The notes under the pieces were generated by a model. That model was not told where the DNA came from and made no database searches. It worked only from the letters and a program-made list of their open reading frames with translations. 52,508 bases of DNA from Myxococcaceae bacterium (GTDB lineage: Bacteria > Myxococcota > Myxococcia > Myxococcales > Myxococcaceae). The stretch is from positions 1 to 52,508 of the forward strand of contig JAIBBQ010000023.1 in the NCBI GenBank assembly GCA_019694595.1, in the 5' to 3' direction. This document shows positions 9,848 to 16,152 of the stretch, in pieces (positions within the stretch are counted from its first letter, which is position 1; each line of letters opens with the position of its first letter). The translations under genes and the position numbers were made by a program.

Positions 9848-10458
9848 GCGCGGCCTGGGACTTCCGCCTGCCCGGCGACGAGCCGGTGATGCAGGCGCTC
9901 AACGGCACCGGGCTGCGCGGCCTCGACGCGCTCGCCGCCGCGGCCTCGAGCCCCTGGTTCGGCCTGCCGGTGCTGCTGGTGATGGCCGTCTGGCTGCTGG
10001 TGCGGCGCACCCGCGCGCCGGGGTGGGCACTGCTGCAGCTGTTCCTCGCGGTGGGGGTCACCGACTTCGTGGGCTCGCACCTGCTCAAGCCCTGGGTGGG
10101 GCGGGTGCGGCCGTGCTTCAGCGGCTTCGCGGAGCACGTGCGGCTGATGGTGGTGGTCGGCCACGGCTCGCCGTCGATGCCCAGCCTCCACGCGGCGAAC
10201 GCCTTCGCGGTCGCGGTGACGCTGCGCTACCTGGCTCCGGAGACGGCGGTGGTGATGTTCCCGGTGGCGGCGGTGATCGCCCTGAGCCGCATCTTCGTCG
10301 GGGTGCACTGGCCGAGCGACGTGCTGCTGGGCTCGACGTACGGCGTGCTGGTGGCCGTCGGGCTGGAGCGCCTGGTCCGCAAGCTCCGGGAGCGCGGCGC
10401 TGCACCGGCGGTGGTCGCCCCGGCCGAGGCTCAGCCGTCGAGCCGTTCTCTGCCCTGA
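9844..10458 (+). CDS. PAP2-family membrane phosphatase
   Basis: This is a lipid-phosphate phosphatase type enzyme, embedded in the inner membrane, such as those that dephosphorylate undecaprenyl pyrophosphate or phosphatidyl substrates. All three PAP2 motifs are present in the 204 residues: KPWVGRVRP near 84, PSMPSLHAAN near 112 and SRIFVGVHWPSD near 150. Several hydrophobic segments surround them. The GTG start overlaps the dmeF stop (GTGA), making this the third gene of a coupled fur/dmeF/PAP2 unit; why a lipid phosphatase travels with a metal exporter is unclear. Its last 28 bases overlap the end of the convergent histidine kinase gene. Confidence 0.88.
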   Translation: MSAAWDFRLPGDEPVMQALNGTGLRGLDALAAAASSPWFGLPVLLVMAVWLLVRRTRAPGWALLQLFLAVGVTDFVGSHLLKPWVGRVRPCFSGFAEHVRLMVVVGHGSPSMPSLHAANAFAVAVTLRYLAPETAVVMFPVAAVIALSRIFVGVHWPSDVLLGSTYGVLVAVGLERLVRKLRERGAAPAVVAPAEAQPSSRSLP

Positions 10459-11984
10459 GCGTCGAGCGCTTCGCGCACCGCGAGCAGGAGTTCCTGAGGC
10501 GAGAAGGGCTTGCGCAGCAGCTGCGCGCCGGGGGCGAGCGCGCGGCGGACCTGCGGCGAGTCGGCAGCGTGCCCGGACATCAGGAGCACCCGGGCTTCCG
10601 CGCGCAGCGGCCTCAGGCGCCCCGCGAGCTCGCCTCCGCCGAGGTACGGCATCATCACGTCGGCGAGCAGCAGGTCGATGGGGCCGTGGTGCTTCTCGGC
10701 GATGACCAGTGCCTCGCCCGCGCTGTTGGCTTCCAGCACCTGATACCCGTGCCGCTCGAGGACCTCCCGGGCCACCGCGCGCAGGGCGGGCTCGTCCTCG
10801 GTGATGAGAATGGTCTCGGTGCCGCTCAGGCGCGGTGAGCGCAGCGGTGCCACCGCGGCGACCGGGCCGCTGCCCTCGCAGCACGGCAGGTAGATGACGA
10901 ACTCGGTGCCCCGGCCGGGGGCGCTCTCGACCCAGATGGTGCCGCCCGACTGCTGCACGATGCTGCGCACCGTGGCCAGCCCGAGACCGGTGCCACGCCC
11001 CGGCGCCTTGGTGGTGAAGAACGGCTCGAAGACCCGGGTCCGGGTGGCCTCGTCCATGCCGGTGCCGCTGTCGCGCACCCGCAGGCGCACGTGGGGGCCC
11101 GGGCGCACCCCGAGGTGCCGCGACGCGAAGTCGGCCCCCAGCAGCACCTGGGCGGTCTCGATGAGCAGCTCGCCGCCCCGGGGCATGGCGTCCCTGGCGT
11201 TGGCGGTGAGGTTGAGCAGCACCTGCTCGACGCTGCCCGGGTCGATCTTCACCGCGCCCAGCCCTTCGCCGAGCCGCACGGTGACCTTCACCGGGTCGTC
11301 GGCCATGCGGCGAACGAGCTTCTCGGCGCCGGCGATGACCGGGTTGAGGTCGATGACCTGCGCGTCGGCCTTCGCGGTGCGGCTCAGGCCGAGGAGCTGC
11401 CGGGTGAGCGCCGAGGCGCGCTGCGCGGCGCTCTCGATCTGCTCCAGCGCCTCGCGCTGCAGCACGCCGCCCTGTGCCCCCTGGGCCTCGAGCTTGAGCT
11501 GCCCCAGGCCCGCGTAGCTGAGGATGATCGACAGCAGGTTGTTGAAGTCGTGCGCCACGCCGCTCGCCAGCTGGCCGATGGCCTCGAGCTTCTGCGACTG
11601 GCGCAGCTGGGCCTCGGTCCGCGCGAGATCGGCCGCCGCGGCCCGGGCATCGGTGACGTCGATGGTGAGGATGCAGATGCCTTCGGGCACCGGCAGGCTG
11701 CGCACCTCGAACCAACGCTCGGTGCCGTCAGGGAAGCGGAACGGCGTCTCCAGCCTGCCGTGGACCCGCCGGTCCATGGAGTCCTGGAGCATCTGGTGGA
11801 GCGGGGTGCCTTCGAAGCCGGGGTACGCCTCCATCGCGTTGCGGCCGATGAGGTAGTCCGCCGTGGAGCGGCTCTGCACGAGCGCCGCCTTGTTCAGGTA
11901 CAGGAACTTCCAGTCGAAGCTGACGACCTGGCAACCTTCGAGCAGGCTGTCGAGGACCGCCTCGGCGAGATGTGGCGACGTCAT
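10431..11984 (-). CDS. Hybrid sensor histidine kinase: PAS, HisKA, HATPase and receiver
   Basis: The 517-residue cytoplasmic protein reads in order: PAS-like sensor (about 10-115), dimerisation domain with the phosphoacceptor His in GVAHDFNNLLS near 144, ATPase domain with N-box NLTANARDAM near 247 and TGLGLATV near 320, and a receiver domain (about 388-505) whose phosphoacceptor Asp is in LLLADVMMP near 442. No membrane segment is present, so the PAS domain senses an internal signal. No separate response regulator lies next to it, so the output partner is elsewhere. The start at 11984 has a GGGGGTGG stretch upstream. Its 3' end overlaps the convergent PAP2 gene. Confidence 0.93.
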   Translation of the reverse strand: MTSPHLAEAVLDSLLEGCQVVSFDWKFLYLNKAALVQSRSTADYLIGRNAMEAYPGFEGTPLHQMLQDSMDRRVHGRLETPFRFPDGTERWFEVRSLPVPEGICILTIDVTDARAAAADLARTEAQLRQSQKLEAIGQLASGVAHDFNNLLSIILSYAGLGQLKLEAQGAQGGVLQREALEQIESAAQRASALTRQLLGLSRTAKADAQVIDLNPVIAGAEKLVRRMADDPVKVTVRLGEGLGAVKIDPGSVEQVLLNLTANARDAMPRGGELLIETAQVLLGADFASRHLGVRPGPHVRLRVRDSGTGMDEATRTRVFEPFFTTKAPGRGTGLGLATVRSIVQQSGGTIWVESAPGRGTEFVIYLPCCEGSGPVAAVAPLRSPRLSGTETILITEDEPALRAVAREVLERHGYQVLEANSAGEALVIAEKHHGPIDLLLADVMMPYLGGGELAGRLRPLRAEARVLLMSGHAADSPQVRRALAPGAQLLRKPFSPQELLLAVREALDAQGRERLDG

Positions 11985-12063: not shown

Positions 12064-13434
12064 TCAGGCCAGGGGTACGGGGTCGAGATCGGCGACCGGC
12101 AGGCTGCCGCGGGCGGTCTGCCCGAAGCGGGTGCGCACGATGGCCCCCAGGGTGGCGGTCACCGCGGTGCCGACCACCAGTGGCCCCAGCACGGGAATGC
12201 GCGAGAGCAGCAGCATCGCCAGGATGCCCAGGGCGAGCGCGCTGGCCTGGGTCTTCTTGAGGCGGAAGGCGGGCAGCCGGGCGCCCAGCAGGTTCGAGAG
12301 CACCACCAGGCTCGCCACCACCGCGAGCGCGGCGAGCACCCAGAAGACCAGCGCCACCGGAATGCCCACCACGGTGAGGATGAGGAAGAGCGTGAGCGGC
12401 ACCGAGGCGACGGTGGCCAGGAGCCCGATGACGCCGTTGCGCACCGGCGCCGCCGACAGCTCGGCCTCGATGGCCTTCATGCGCTGGGGCGCGAACATCA
12501 TCAGCACGAAGCCCAGGCCGAAGAGCGAGGCGAACTGGAGCAGGAAGAGCGCGAGCGCCGAGGCCTCGCCGGCGCCCGAGGGGCTCGACGGCGGGCGGGC
12601 GGCGCCCACCGCGCGCGCGGCCACCGCCTGGCCGAGGCCCGAGCCTCCGAAGCTGACCACCTGGCCACCGACCTTGGCGCCCGGCTCGCGCACCACCGTG
12701 CCACCGAAGCTCACCGCGTCGCCGCCGACCTGGGCCGTGGGCTTGAGCACCACGTCGCCGCCGAAGGCCACCACGTCGCCCTTCACCTTGCCCTGGTCTT
12801 CGACCGTCACCGGGCCGCCCCAGCTCACCACGCTGTCGAGCTCCTCGTCGGCGTGCACGGTGACCGGGCCGCTGTGGCTGACCGAGGTGGAGCGCAGCTT
12901 CGATTCCTCGGCGCGGGCGCGGGCTTCCTCGGCCTTGGCCTTGGCCTCTTCCTTGAGCGCCTTCACCTGATCGCGCTGGGCCTCGCGCAGCTCCTGGGCG
13001 CGGTCCCGCGCCTCCTCGGCCTGGTCACGCGCGGCCTCGGCCCGCTCGGCGGCGGCCTCGGCCTCGGCCTTCAGCTGCTCCGCCACCGCGGCCGCGCTCG
13101 GCTGGGCCACCGCGGCCGGAGGGAGAACCGGCGGCACGGGGGCGACGGCCGGCGCGGGGGCGACCGGGGCCTGGGCCGCCGGCCTGAGCACGAAGAGCGT
13201 GCCTTCCTGGGTGACCTCGAGGCCGTAGGCCTTGGCGACGGTGCGCAGCGCGTCTTCGGGGCGGACGTCGGTGAGCATCACCTCGGCGGGCACGTCGAGC
13301 GGGCCGGTCACCACCAGGTTGAGCTTGCCGTCCTTCGCGAGGTGCTGGAGCGCCTCGCGCAGGGTGCCGTGAAACTCGAGCGACACCGTGTCCGGCGCGG
13401 CGGCGAGGAAGAGGACGAGGGCGAGGGACGTCAT
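12064..13434 (-). CDS. STN-domain / beta-helix repeat membrane protein of an ECF sigma operon
   Basis: The 456-residue protein has an unusual layout. It has a signal peptide (1-15) and then a region at about 16-85 resembling the secretin/TonB short N-terminal (STN) fold (GTLREALQHLAKDGKLNLVV ... VMLTDVRPEDALRTVAKAYG). Next come a proline/alanine linker, a charged coiled coil at about 115-190, and four bactofilin-like repeats at about 200-275 built around V-x-F/W-GG with KVKGD, QVGGD and KVGG turns. Four or so membrane spans (about 300-440) follow. In TonB-dependent transducers the STN domain talks to an anti-sigma factor, so a sensor role here is an inference. Its ATG overlaps the previous stop (ATGA). 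No complete family match is known to me. Confidence 0.72.
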   Translation of the reverse strand: MTSLALVLFLAAAPDTVSLEFHGTLREALQHLAKDGKLNLVVTGPLDVPAEVMLTDVRPEDALRTVAKAYGLEVTQEGTLFVLRPAAQAPVAPAPAVAPVPPVLPPAAVAQPSAAAVAEQLKAEAEAAAERAEAARDQAEEARDRAQELREAQRDQVKALKEEAKAKAEEARARAEESKLRSTSVSHSGPVTVHADEELDSVVSWGGPVTVEDQGKVKGDVVAFGGDVVLKPTAQVGGDAVSFGGTVVREPGAKVGGQVVSFGGSGLGQAVAARAVGAARPPSSPSGAGEASALALFLLQFASLFGLGFVLMMFAPQRMKAIEAELSAAPVRNGVIGLLATVASVPLTLFLILTVVGIPVALVFWVLAALAVVASLVVLSNLLGARLPAFRLKKTQASALALGILAMLLLSRIPVLGPLVVGTAVTATLGAIVRTRFGQTARGSLPVADLDPVPLA

Positions 13435-13895
13435 CGGGACACCGGTGCGCGAGAGAGGACCAGGCGACGGAACATGAGGAGCGGGAGCACCATGGCGGTG
13501 AGCAAGGTGAGGGTCAGCGGGAGCGCGGCGACCTGCCAGAGCGCGCCCAGGGCGGTGCCGGCGGCGAGCACCAGCTCGCGCGCGTCGAGCACCAGGCGGG
13601 TGAAGGCGAGCCCGAGGCCGCCGGAGCCTTGCGCGGCCAGCGCGCCCAGCCCGGCAGCGCCGGTGACCACCACGATGAGCGCGGACAGCACCTGGTCGGT
13701 GCGCGAGAAGGCCCGGGCCGGCGACGCCTCGACCCGCGCCATCACCCCGCGCAGGAAGCCCGGCGGGGGCAGGGGGTCGACCAGCCGCGAGAGGTCGTGC
13801 TCCAGGAGCCGGTGGGCTTCGAGCACCTGCGCGCGGGTCTCGGGGTCGAGGCCTGCGAGCTCGTGCTCGATGGCGTCGTCGTGCTCGGTGCTCAT
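13431..13895 (-). CDS. Membrane protein, probable anti-sigma factor
   Basis: The 154-residue protein has a charged cytoplasmic N-terminus (about 1-65) and two or three hydrophobic segments (about 68-88, 108-142). It lies directly between an ECF sigma factor gene and the STN-domain gene, with ATGA overlaps on both sides (13892-13895 and 13431-13434), the standard place for a membrane anti-sigma factor. The usual zinc-binding HxxxCxxC motif of many anti-sigma factors is absent, and no recognised family domain stands out, so the role is inferred from gene order and topology. Confidence 0.68.
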   Translation of the reverse strand: MSTEHDDAIEHELAGLDPETRAQVLEAHRLLEHDLSRLVDPLPPPGFLRGVMARVEASPARAFSRTDQVLSALIVVVTGAAGLGALAAQGSGGLGLAFTRLVLDARELVLAAGTALGALWQVAALPLTLTLLTAMVLPLLMFRRLVLSRAPVSR

Positions 13896-14509
13896 GCGCT
13901 CACCTCGGCGCCGGTGGTGGGGGCGAGGCGCTGGCGCAGCTTCTCTCGCGCGCGGAACAGGCGGGCCATGATGGTGCCGGGCGCCACGCCGAGGATGCCG
14001 GCGATCTCCTTCGTGGTGCGCTTCTGCACGTAATAGAGCGCCAGCACCTCGCGGTCGTCGACCTTGAGCGTGGCGAGCGCGGCCTCGAGCGAGCGGTGCT
14101 CCTGGGCGGTGATGGCGAGCGCCTCGGCGGACGCGGCGGGGCTCTCGAGGGTGGGGGCGTGATCGTCCACGTCCTCGGTCTTCACCCGCGCCCGCTGGCG
14201 CAGCAGGTCGAGGCAGAGGTTGCGCGCGATGGCCAGCACCCAGACGTCGAAGGGCCGCGACTCGTCGAAGCGGTCGAGATGCTGCCAGGCGCGCAGGAAC
14301 GCTTCCTGGGCCACCTCGGTCGCCTCGGCTTCGCGCGACAGGAGCCGCAGGCACAGGCCGTAGACCGGGCGCTGCACCTGCTTCACCAGCGACTCGAAGG
14401 CGTGGCGGTCGCCCTTGCGCGCCTTGCGCACGTCTTCCACGAAAGGAAGCGCGTCGTCGCCCATGAACGCGAAGGACCAGGACCTCACTGCGGAAGCGAT
14501 GGCATTCAC
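13892..14509 (-). CDS. ECF-type RNA polymerase sigma factor
   Basis: The protein is up to 205 residues, with region 2 (about 36-100, including EVAQEAFLRAWQHLDRFD and ARNLCLDLLRQRARV) and region 4 (about 145-195, including DREVLALYYVQKRTTKEIAG and GTIMARLFRAREKLRQRL). These two domains alone define the extracytoplasmic-function class. It directs transcription of a small stress or envelope regulon once its anti-sigma partner releases it; the two following genes are coupled by stop/start overlaps. The start is uncertain: GTG 14509 or ATG 14464 both lack a good ribosome site. Confidence 0.92.
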   Translation of the reverse strand: MNAIASAVRSWSFAFMGDDALPFVEDVRKARKGDRHAFESLVKQVQRPVYGLCLRLLSREAEATEVAQEAFLRAWQHLDRFDESRPFDVWVLAIARNLCLDLLRQRARVKTEDVDDHAPTLESPAASAEALAITAQEHRSLEAALATLKVDDREVLALYYVQKRTTKEIAGILGVAPGTIMARLFRAREKLRQRLAPTTGAEVSA

Positions 14510-14574
14510 AGCCAGCAGTACGGCTCGAAGGCCCCCTCATTGCTCCGGGGGGCACGACGACAAAACATCAACGA

Positions 14575-16152
14575 TCACTTGCGCTTGGGGGCCTGGGCGG
14601 CGCGATTCGCGGCGCGCTGGGCCTTCTTCTGCCGCGCAGCCTCGCGGAAGCTCAGGGGCTTCTCGTCGCGCCTGGGCTCCTGGGCGGGGGCGGGGGGCCG
14701 GGAATGGTAGCGGGCGTCGCGGGGCGGGCGCAGGCCGTCCTTCCGGGGGCGCTCGTCGCCCGCGCGCGGCGGCGGAGCGTCGGGGGCCTCGGCGGCAGCG
14801 GCGTCGCGCTCGGGGAAGCGGGGCCGCCGCGGGCCCTGGCGGCGCTCGGCTTCCCGGCGGAAGCGATCGCGCGGCGGGGCGATGCGCTCGGGCTTGGGGG
14901 CGCCGTCGCTGCCGTAGCGGCCGCGCTCCTGGCGCTCGGAGAAGCCTTCGGGGGCGGCGGCGAAGGGCACGCCTTCTTCGCGCTCGGTGAAGTGGAACAG
15001 GCGCTTCACCACCAGGGTGGCGTAGCTGCCGGGGGGCAGGGTGAAGGCGATGTTCACCTTGAGGAGCCCCTTGTTGAGCTCGTCGGGGCGCGGCTTGCCG
15101 AGCACCAGCTTGGCGGGGTTCACCAGCACCGGCCGCGGCTCGTGCTTGAAGAACAGGCGGCCCTGGGCGCCGGGCACCACGAGCTGGTCGAGGCGCAGCT
15201 TTTCCTTGCCCAGCGCCCACAGCGCCGCTTCCTGGATGCGGGGGTCGTCGAAGGTGGAGTCGGGCCCCAGCAGCGGGAACTGCGCCTGGCGGAGGAAGTC
15301 GAGCACCTCGCCGGACGCCTCGCGGTGGAAGAGCACCGAGCCCGCCTGGTACGGCATCACGAAGAGCGATTCCCGCGGCAGGCACAGCTGGAGCAAGCGC
15401 CGCACGCCTTCGTTCCAGAGGTAGCTCTGGAAGGTGAACAGCTGCATCGCGCGGTAGGCCTGGTCGAACTGCATGAAGGCGCCCAGGTAGTCCGTCGGGT
15501 CGTCGCGCAGCGCCTTGAGCACCCGGTAGTACTTGCGGTTGCCGGCGTAGGGGCAGTGGGCGCCCCAGTCGCCCCAGTTGTCTTTCCAGAACTGCTTCAC
15601 CTTGGCGTCTTCGCTGCGGTCGAGCTCGGACGGCACCGCGAGCATGTTGCGCATCGCGGCCTCGAAGTCGCCGCGCAGCAGGTCCTTGGCGATGAAGCCC
15701 TGGCCGTGCTTGAGCGAGCCGAAGCGCTGGCTGTCGAAGTAGTTCACCACGCCGAGCCGCTCGACTTCCGCGGCGGCGATGGTGAGCGAGGGCAGCTCGG
15801 CTTCCTTCACCGCGCGGGCGGTGACCGAGAAGCGGTTGGAGGTGATGTTGCGGGCCGACAGCGGCGCGTCGGTGTACCCGAGCAGCTTGAGCCGCATCAG
15901 CTCGTCTTGCCAGGCGACGTCGTGGCCGTGCACGGCGATGAGCTGCTCGGTGCGGCCCTGCTTGTCCTTGAGGCCGCAGTAGCTGATGGCGTCGGGCTTG
16001 AGCCCGAACTTCTCGCGGATCTTGGCCAGGGCCTCGAACGTCGAGAGCTTCTGCTTGTCCATCAGGTAGACGCGGTAGTCGCCGTCGTCGACCTGGTCGA
16101 AGCGGAAGGACTCCTTGACCGAGAAGTCCTCGGGTTTCTGCTTGAGCCGCAT
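14575..16152 (-). CDS. truD: tRNA pseudouridine(13) synthase TruD with a long basic C-terminal tail
   Basis: TruD converts uridine 13 of certain tRNAs to pseudouridine. The 525-residue protein shows the family core: catalytic Asp63 in YCGLKDKQGRTEQ, the SNRFSVTARA strand near 108, and NYFDSQRFGS near 137 with HGQGFIAKDLLRGD just after. The core ends at about residue 400. A tail of some 125 residues follows, dominated by Arg, Pro, Ala and Lys and evidently disordered; such a tail is absent from enterobacterial TruD and may bind RNA. It is divergent from the cyclase gene (88 bases apart) and upstream of the ECF operon on the same strand with a 65-base gap. Confidence 0.93.
   Translation of the reverse strand: MRLKQKPEDFSVKESFRFDQVDDGDYRVYLMDKQKLSTFEALAKIREKFGLKPDAISYCGLKDKQGRTEQLIAVHGHDVAWQDELMRLKLLGYTDAPLSARNITSNRFSVTARAVKEAELPSLTIAAAEVERLGVVNYFDSQRFGSLKHGQGFIAKDLLRGDFEAAMRNMLAVPSELDRSEDAKVKQFWKDNWGDWGAHCPYAGNRKYYRVLKALRDDPTDYLGAFMQFDQAYRAMQLFTFQSYLWNEGVRRLLQLCLPRESLFVMPYQAGSVLFHREASGEVLDFLRQAQFPLLGPDSTFDDPRIQEAALWALGKEKLRLDQLVVPGAQGRLFFKHEPRPVLVNPAKLVLGKPRPDELNKGLLKVNIAFTLPPGSYATLVVKRLFHFTEREEGVPFAAAPEGFSERQERGRYGSDGAPKPERIAPPRDRFRREAERRQGPRRPRFPERDAAAAEAPDAPPPRAGDERPRKDGLRPPRDARYHSRPPAPAQEPRRDEKPLSFREAARQKKAQRAANRAAQAPKRK

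Follow-up and report, generated by a model that had tools for sequence, protein, structure and literature searches.

Organization of the operon

The window, that is, the whole stretch of 52,508 nucleotides analysed here (contig JAIBBQ010000023.1 of a Myxococcaceae bacterium, assembly GCA_019694595.1), carries on its minus strand an operon for an ECF sigma factor, a small protein with two transmembrane (TM) segments and a larger membrane protein. Its features are as follows.

12064-14509, minus: whole operon, the ECF sigma gene, then the two-TM gene, then the third gene, with ATGA overlaps
14519-14543, minus: operon promoter GCAAT-N16-CGTA, 9 nt before the GTG start, conserved in orthologous upstream regions
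13892-14509, minus: ECF sigma factor (Pfam Sigma70_r2 4.8e-20, r4_2 1.7e-14), start GTG at 14507-14509
13431-13895, minus: putative two-TM anti-sigma factor by descent, zinc motif lost (orthologue motif, hhalign, AlphaFold, RsiW similarity)
13722-13895, minus: presumed cytoplasmic anti-sigma region, residues 1-58 (modelled helices, conserved block; putative role)
12064-13434, minus: STN / coiled-coil / beta-helix / TM-bundle protein (orthologues in 50 of 60 relatives; AlphaFold)
13180-13386, minus: STN fold, residues 17-85 (orthologue Pfam, AlphaFold, VIA-align)
12889-13095, minus: long helix / coiled coil, residues 114-182 (AlphaFold, one predicted helix)
12649-12882, minus: bactofilin-like beta-helix, residues 185-262 (orthologue Pfam, AlphaFold, VIA-align)
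12133-12570, minus: membrane part, residues 289-434, five predicted helices (TM prediction, AlphaFold, loop charges)

An earlier note on this DNA had described three translationally coupled genes at these coordinates, and the window sequence bears this out, as each of the two gene junctions is an ATGA overlap. The encoded proteins have 205 (sigma factor), 154 (middle protein, with two TM segments) and 456 residues (third protein, a membrane protein). Upstream lies a TruD gene (14575-16152), which is also a frequent upstream neighbour of the operon in the neighbourhoods of 14 relatives. Downstream, at a distance of about 80 nt from the third gene, a PAS-HisKA-HATPase-receiver hybrid histidine kinase is encoded on the same strand (10431-11984); it was not seen after the operon in the 14 neighbourhoods. 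In the openly licensed literature searched, we found no earlier description of the operon or of the third protein; the component parts are of known kinds, and no description was found of their combination or its spread.

The sigma factor

The first gene encodes a short protein having sigma-70 regions 2 and 4 only, as in members of the ECF family. We dropped the start chosen by the gene caller, ATG 14464, in favour of GTG 14509, because the VNAL N-terminus and the distance to the promoter are conserved. In the PDB comparison, the closest solved sigma factor was SigW of B. subtilis (3.8e-23). The scores on the two NCBIfam SigW equivalog models are far under their cut-offs (114.1 bits versus 209 for NF007223, and 101.8 versus 243.1 for TIGR02948), and therefore we describe the protein as one that "works like" SigW and not as one that "is" SigW. 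It may have a group number in the main ECF reclassification. As a lead only, it may correspond to Myxococcus RpoE1 (Ward 1998, motility).

Architecture of the third protein

We modelled the third protein with AlphaFold using 32 sequences (mean pLDDT 83.7). Behind a signal-peptide-like start, the model shows an STN region with the order E-H-E-E-H-E-E (block pLDDT about 93-96), one uninterrupted helix, a beta-helix and five TM helices. Thus the STN-like domain, coiled coil, bactofilin-like repeats and multi-span membrane part, all of which had been read from the letters in the earlier note, are present in the predicted structure.

The STN assignment comes from orthologue profiles together with the fold, the Pfam match of the window protein alone being sub-threshold (E = 0.035). 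STN (PF07660) was matched at E ≤ 0.01 in 12 of 21 aligned orthologues, with a best value of 1.6e-18. VIA-align placed the region close to EscC (Z 10.2), BDI_1681 (10.1), PupR (10.0), PilQ (9.6) and FecA (8.5), whereas Foldseek gave weaker results (best E 1.0e-3, PilQ N0). Residues 16-88 also match the N-terminal part of the NCBIfam PilQ model at 5.9e-05, far under the cut-off of that model.

The beta-helix could be superimposed on Thermus bactofilin by VIA-align with a Z of 9.4 and an rmsd of 2.2 (78 residues aligned, 30% identity). The window protein does not match the bactofilin family (PF04519) at E ≤ 1, and 6 of the 21 orthologues match it at E ≤ 0.01. Known bactofilins are cytoplasmic filaments, whereas the helix described here is predicted to lie outside the cytoplasm, because of the signal-peptide-like start and the TM bundle.

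STN was absent from most third proteins examined outside Myxococcota. As most of the distant third proteins examined do not have it, the beta-helix and the TM part look like the shared core, to which STN is an add-on. The sister-family proteins L066, L070, L071 and L119 appear to have tandem STN-like domains; two Pfam STN stretches (5.6e-21) are shown for L119 alone, which is labelled Anaeromyxobacter.

The presence of an STN domain raises the question of TonB-type cell-surface signalling, in which an outer-membrane receptor encoded at another locus would make contact and STN would relay this to the anti-sigma factor. The fold is indeed nearest to signalling and secretin N0 domains, and the operon shares with FecI-FecR-FecA an ECF sigma factor, a membrane anti-sigma factor and an STN domain outside the inner membrane. 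However, the STN domain resides here on an inner-membrane-type protein with a beta-helix and a five-helix membrane part in place of a barrel, and Pfam gave no match to a TonB-dependent barrel domain or to FecR in any of the three operon proteins. Moreover, STN is missing in most of the distant members examined, and the predicted targets (see below) are membrane-stress genes, with no receptor or siderophore gene seen among those listed. We consider this route very improbable. The suggestion in the earlier note of envelope signalling without a TonB receptor agrees with these observations.

Probable descent of the middle protein from zinc-binding anti-sigma factors

In the AlphaFold model of the middle protein (mean pLDDT 82.4), three short N-terminal helices (2-13, 18-39 and 47-57) are followed by two long ones that span the membrane segments, and almost nothing remains outside. 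RsiW was its only plausible PDB match, with a sub-threshold E of 0.032; Foldseek with the model returned nothing useful.

The earlier note had described this protein as devoid of the zinc anti-sigma (ZAS) motif, HxxxCxxC. This is correct for the window protein, which has no cysteine, but it is misleading for the family: 33 of 49 distinct orthologues keep HxxxCxxC, and in the other 16, the one from the window among them, the zinc segment is deleted. The zinc-bearing and zinc-less sets can be aligned almost end to end (hhalign probability 100, E 1.7e-42). With distant zf-HC2 proteins, the zinc-bearing orthologues align at a probability of 98.3 over 83 columns, whereas the zinc-less forms, taken alone, give a weak match to distant zf-HC2 anti-sigma factors (probability 88 over 27 columns); the connection runs through the zinc-bearing forms. 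In the gene located between those for the sigma factor and the third protein, zf-HC2 exceeds its gathering score at Chloroflexi/Anaerolineae, Eisenbacteria, Armatimonadetes and Thermoflexales loci; the intermediate genes of L114, L149 and L065 miss this score.

As most orthologues have the motif and an alignment of the two sets covers nearly their full length, the motif was probably lost within the sub-lineage of the window, and the middle protein appears to descend from a ZAS anti-sigma factor whose zinc site has disappeared. We therefore rejected a new zinc-independent class of anti-sigma factors. Of the earlier interpretation, the STN fold, the bactofilin-like beta-helix and the operon stand, and the zinc-independent kind of middle protein does not.

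With its zinc site gone, the middle protein might also have ceased to inhibit the sigma factor in this lineage, control being exerted in another way. The lack of cysteine and the deletion shared by 16 orthologues would fit such a loss. However, the helices that flank the deletion are strongly conserved, with R29, L35, L38, P43, P44 and V51 invariant in 29 sequences, and zinc-less anti-sigma domains are known to function elsewhere, which make a loss of inhibition improbable.

A conserved promoter precedes the operon

G[CA]AAT-N16/17-CGTA was found in 55 of the 57 distinct orthologous regions having enough upstream sequence (6 more were too short), 48 of them with N16. The same elements spaced by 13, 14, 18, 19 or 20 nt occurred in none of the 57, and the two regions without the N16/17 form are L002 and L040. 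Among the 20 upstream regions that passed the length and anchor filter and were used for the promoter logo, GTG is located 9 nt past CGTA in all 19 N16 rows; one row has GAAAT. Because CGTA sits so close to GTG, the operon transcript is probably leaderless. A GGAAC/TGAAC-type promoter, considered as an alternative, matched in one of these 20 regions and was discarded.

Outside Myxococcaceae (L111 onwards), AA[TC]-N16-CGTA was present at 16 of 27 loci and the N17 form at 7, compared with 3, 0, 1 and 1 for the control spacers N13, N19, N22 and N10, all among the matches listed. The conservation of G[CA]AAT-N16-CGTA suggests that it is read by the sigma factor of the operon; another ECF sigma factor could share this promoter.

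Spread of the operon

The third protein was found in 50 of 60 relatives and the middle protein in 36 of 60. A profile search of contigs with the third-protein alignment yielded, among the matches listed, 96 confirmed loci, of which 80 were kept. We counted sigma genes at 61 of these at least 80 loci, namely those with 2.8 kb or more of upstream sequence: among the matches listed, an ECF sigma gene lies within 3 kb upstream on the same strand at 50 of the 61, including 25 of 36 more distant loci (L111 onwards), and just one sigma match was on the opposite strand. No ECF sigma gene was found nearby at the remaining 11 of the loci listed (L123, L128, L130, L131, L133, L134, L138, L143, L144, L146 and L147). 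The cyanobacterial L134, L143 and L144 encode relatives of the beta-helix/TM part, with no ECF sigma gene found within 3 kb upstream.

The labels of the sigma-bearing loci include Myxococcus, Corallococcus, Archangium, Anaeromyxobacter, Zixibacteria, Eisenbacteria, Chloroflexi, Armatimonadetes and Acidobacteriota. At some distant loci, a DUF4097 or toastrack-type gene resides within the operon. At L117, L118, L124 and L129, a signal-peptide-like protein of ~350-365 residues is encoded between the sigma factor and the third protein, that of L129 matching DUF4097; at these four loci, a separate small anti-sigma gene was not picked out by the script. A sigma factor operonically linked to some Toastrack operons is mentioned in PMC11237479, whose text contains neither "bactofilin" nor "anti-sigma".

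Genes behind the promoter motif

We then considered the genes that lie behind this motif elsewhere in the genomes. The genome of the window has eight promoter sites, seven of them at most 54 nt ahead of an ORF and one intragenic. Besides the operon itself, the seven precede a YccF and a DUF1232 gene, each at 9 nt, and genes for an SPFH/Band-7 protein with SHOCT (31 nt), a small membrane protein of the transglycosylase-associated type (39 nt), a probable lipoprotein (7 nt) and a secreted protein (54 nt).

In the 11 genomes analysed from this family, we observed 163 N16 sites versus 69 for N13 and 73 for N19. The excess over N13 and N19 is strong in G008 (20 versus 4 and 0), G022 (15 versus 2 and 9) and G030 (18 versus 4 and 7), and weak in G007 (20 versus 17 and 17), G028 (17 versus 16 and 11) and G021 (21 versus 11 and 13). 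We examined 119 of the 163 sites, which for most genomes were the sites listed except those of sigma operons already identified, the site set being partial for G017, G018, G021, G028 and G035; as controls we used the 60 sites, of 142, with loci given. Sites located within 100 nt upstream of an ORF and outside called genes made up 86 of the 119, compared with 9 of the 60 controls (Fisher p 1.4e-13, a value that is overstated because the genomes are related). Many of the 86 targets are singletons, and some of the sites will be due to chance.

Families downstream of the sites, for which one representative each was checked against Pfam, include PspC, PspA_IM30, Band_7, YccF, DUF1232, DUF2807 and DUF4097. 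By protein count, the larger target clusters are MacB/FtsX permeases (9), PspC (6), DUF2807 (6) and secreted beta-helix proteins (6), followed by small DUF5683-like proteins (5), SPFH (4), Yip1 (4), YccF (3) and one gene each for PspA and DUF4097. No sigma genes other than those of this operon occur among the 86 predicted targets. The representative of the secreted beta-helix cluster had no Pfam match, and all six members are similar to the helix of the third protein (E 4e-17 to 2e-10). Small secreted bactofilin-like proteins are encoded behind GCAAT-N16-CGTA at L188, L200, L227, L237, L276 and L288, in several genomes ~8-10 kb from the sigma operon.

The pattern recurs in five genomes from another family of the order, in whose sigma operons GAAAT replaces GCAAT. 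Here GAAAT-N16-CGTA occurs at 25 sites versus 3 for the N13 form, and 19 of the 25 lie upstream of ORFs, the sigma operon of each of the five genomes included. The targets also comprise three genes for PspC-like proteins and two for secreted beta-helix proteins, which we named by eye from their sequences.

A candidate membrane-stress response resembling that of sigma-W

The consensus of sigma-W promoters has a CGTA -10 element with a 16-nt spacer, which is also the arrangement observed here. Differences from SigW-RsiW are the low equivalog score of the sigma factor (114 of 209 bits), the two-TM, zinc-less anti-sigma factor, the additional STN/beta-helix membrane protein and a -35 element that is GCAAT or GAAAT. 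In E. coli, RpoE, RseA and RseB likewise represent a sigma factor, a membrane anti-sigma factor and a third regulator in one operon; however, RseB is a soluble, periplasmic, lipid-binding-like protein, whereas the third protein here is a TM protein with STN and beta-helix. The sigma-W regulon of B. subtilis holds pspA-ydjGHI, yvlABCD and yuaFGI (PMC3498285). Of their products, YdjI belongs to the SPFH proteins (PMC8581546), and DUF4097 and PspC domains occur in YvlB and YvlC (PMC9239133); the predicted PspA, PspC, SPFH and DUF4097 targets match this set. A sigma-W-like membrane-stress response is thus suggested by SigW as the closest solved sigma factor, the faint likeness to RsiW, the CGTA promoter and the PSP-type targets.

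The computation supports the domains, the conservation of the operon, the promoter motif and the identity of the genes behind it. From these, we infer that the sigma factor reads the motif, that the middle protein inhibits the sigma factor, that the third protein senses, and that the signal is membrane stress. We lean towards reading the locus as the control operon of a sigma-W/PSP-like response in which the third protein reports to the anti-sigma factor without a TonB receptor. In the proposed mechanism, the two-TM anti-sigma factor would retain the sigma factor at the inner membrane. The third protein would adjoin it, its STN domain, coiled coil and beta-helix lying in the periplasm, and would signal the condition of the membrane or envelope through its TM bundle to the anti-sigma factor. 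We assign the reporter role to the third protein because hardly any of the anti-sigma factor lies in the periplasm. Upon stress, the freed sigma factor would act at GCAAT-N16-CGTA to produce a leaderless mRNA of its own operon, and would also turn on the genes for PspC, PspA, SPFH, YccF, DUF1232, GlsB-type and DUF2807 proteins and the secreted bactofilin-like helices. Transcription of the PspA, PspC and SPFH genes by this sigma factor under membrane stress is predicted from the promoter sites.

Alternatively, the third protein could be an effector, that is, a membrane-anchored periplasmic scaffold that braces the envelope and is encoded in the operon because the sigma factor drives it, the roles of sigma and anti-sigma factors being unchanged. 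Consistent with this, the predicted targets also include secreted proteins that have a beta-helix of this sort (the six described above), and DUF4097 genes, which are predicted targets too, are found inside the operon at some distant loci. However, the third position beside the anti-sigma gene is kept across several phylum labels, the third gene is translationally coupled in the window, and the short outside part of the anti-sigma factor would leave sensing to another protein. Judging from gene position and from this short outside part in the model, we somewhat favour a sensor over an effector, the latter role being possible and rather unlikely.

A broader and quite speculative extension of the sensor reading is an ECF stress module shared across phyla. 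Its sensor, which would control a membrane anti-sigma factor, would be a bactofilin-like helix that faces the periplasm and is fused to a TM bundle, with STN added in myxobacteria and feedback through the secreted helices. If so, mechanical effects or self-assembly would let the sensor read the envelope, and the sigma factor would answer with more secreted helices of the same kind and with PSP proteins; this would close a feedback loop and make the third protein a sensor for a periplasmic polymer of its own relatives. The analysis points to an extracytoplasmic bactofilin-like helix on a membrane bundle as a widespread, apparently undescribed partner of ECF sigma and anti-sigma factors. The operon also offers a testable candidate for the control of PSP-type membrane repair in Myxococcota, namely an ECF sigma factor with a precise promoter, from which the predicted regulon can be read in many genomes. 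It can be tested in Myxococcus xanthus, where the operon is present in one strain examined (L083).
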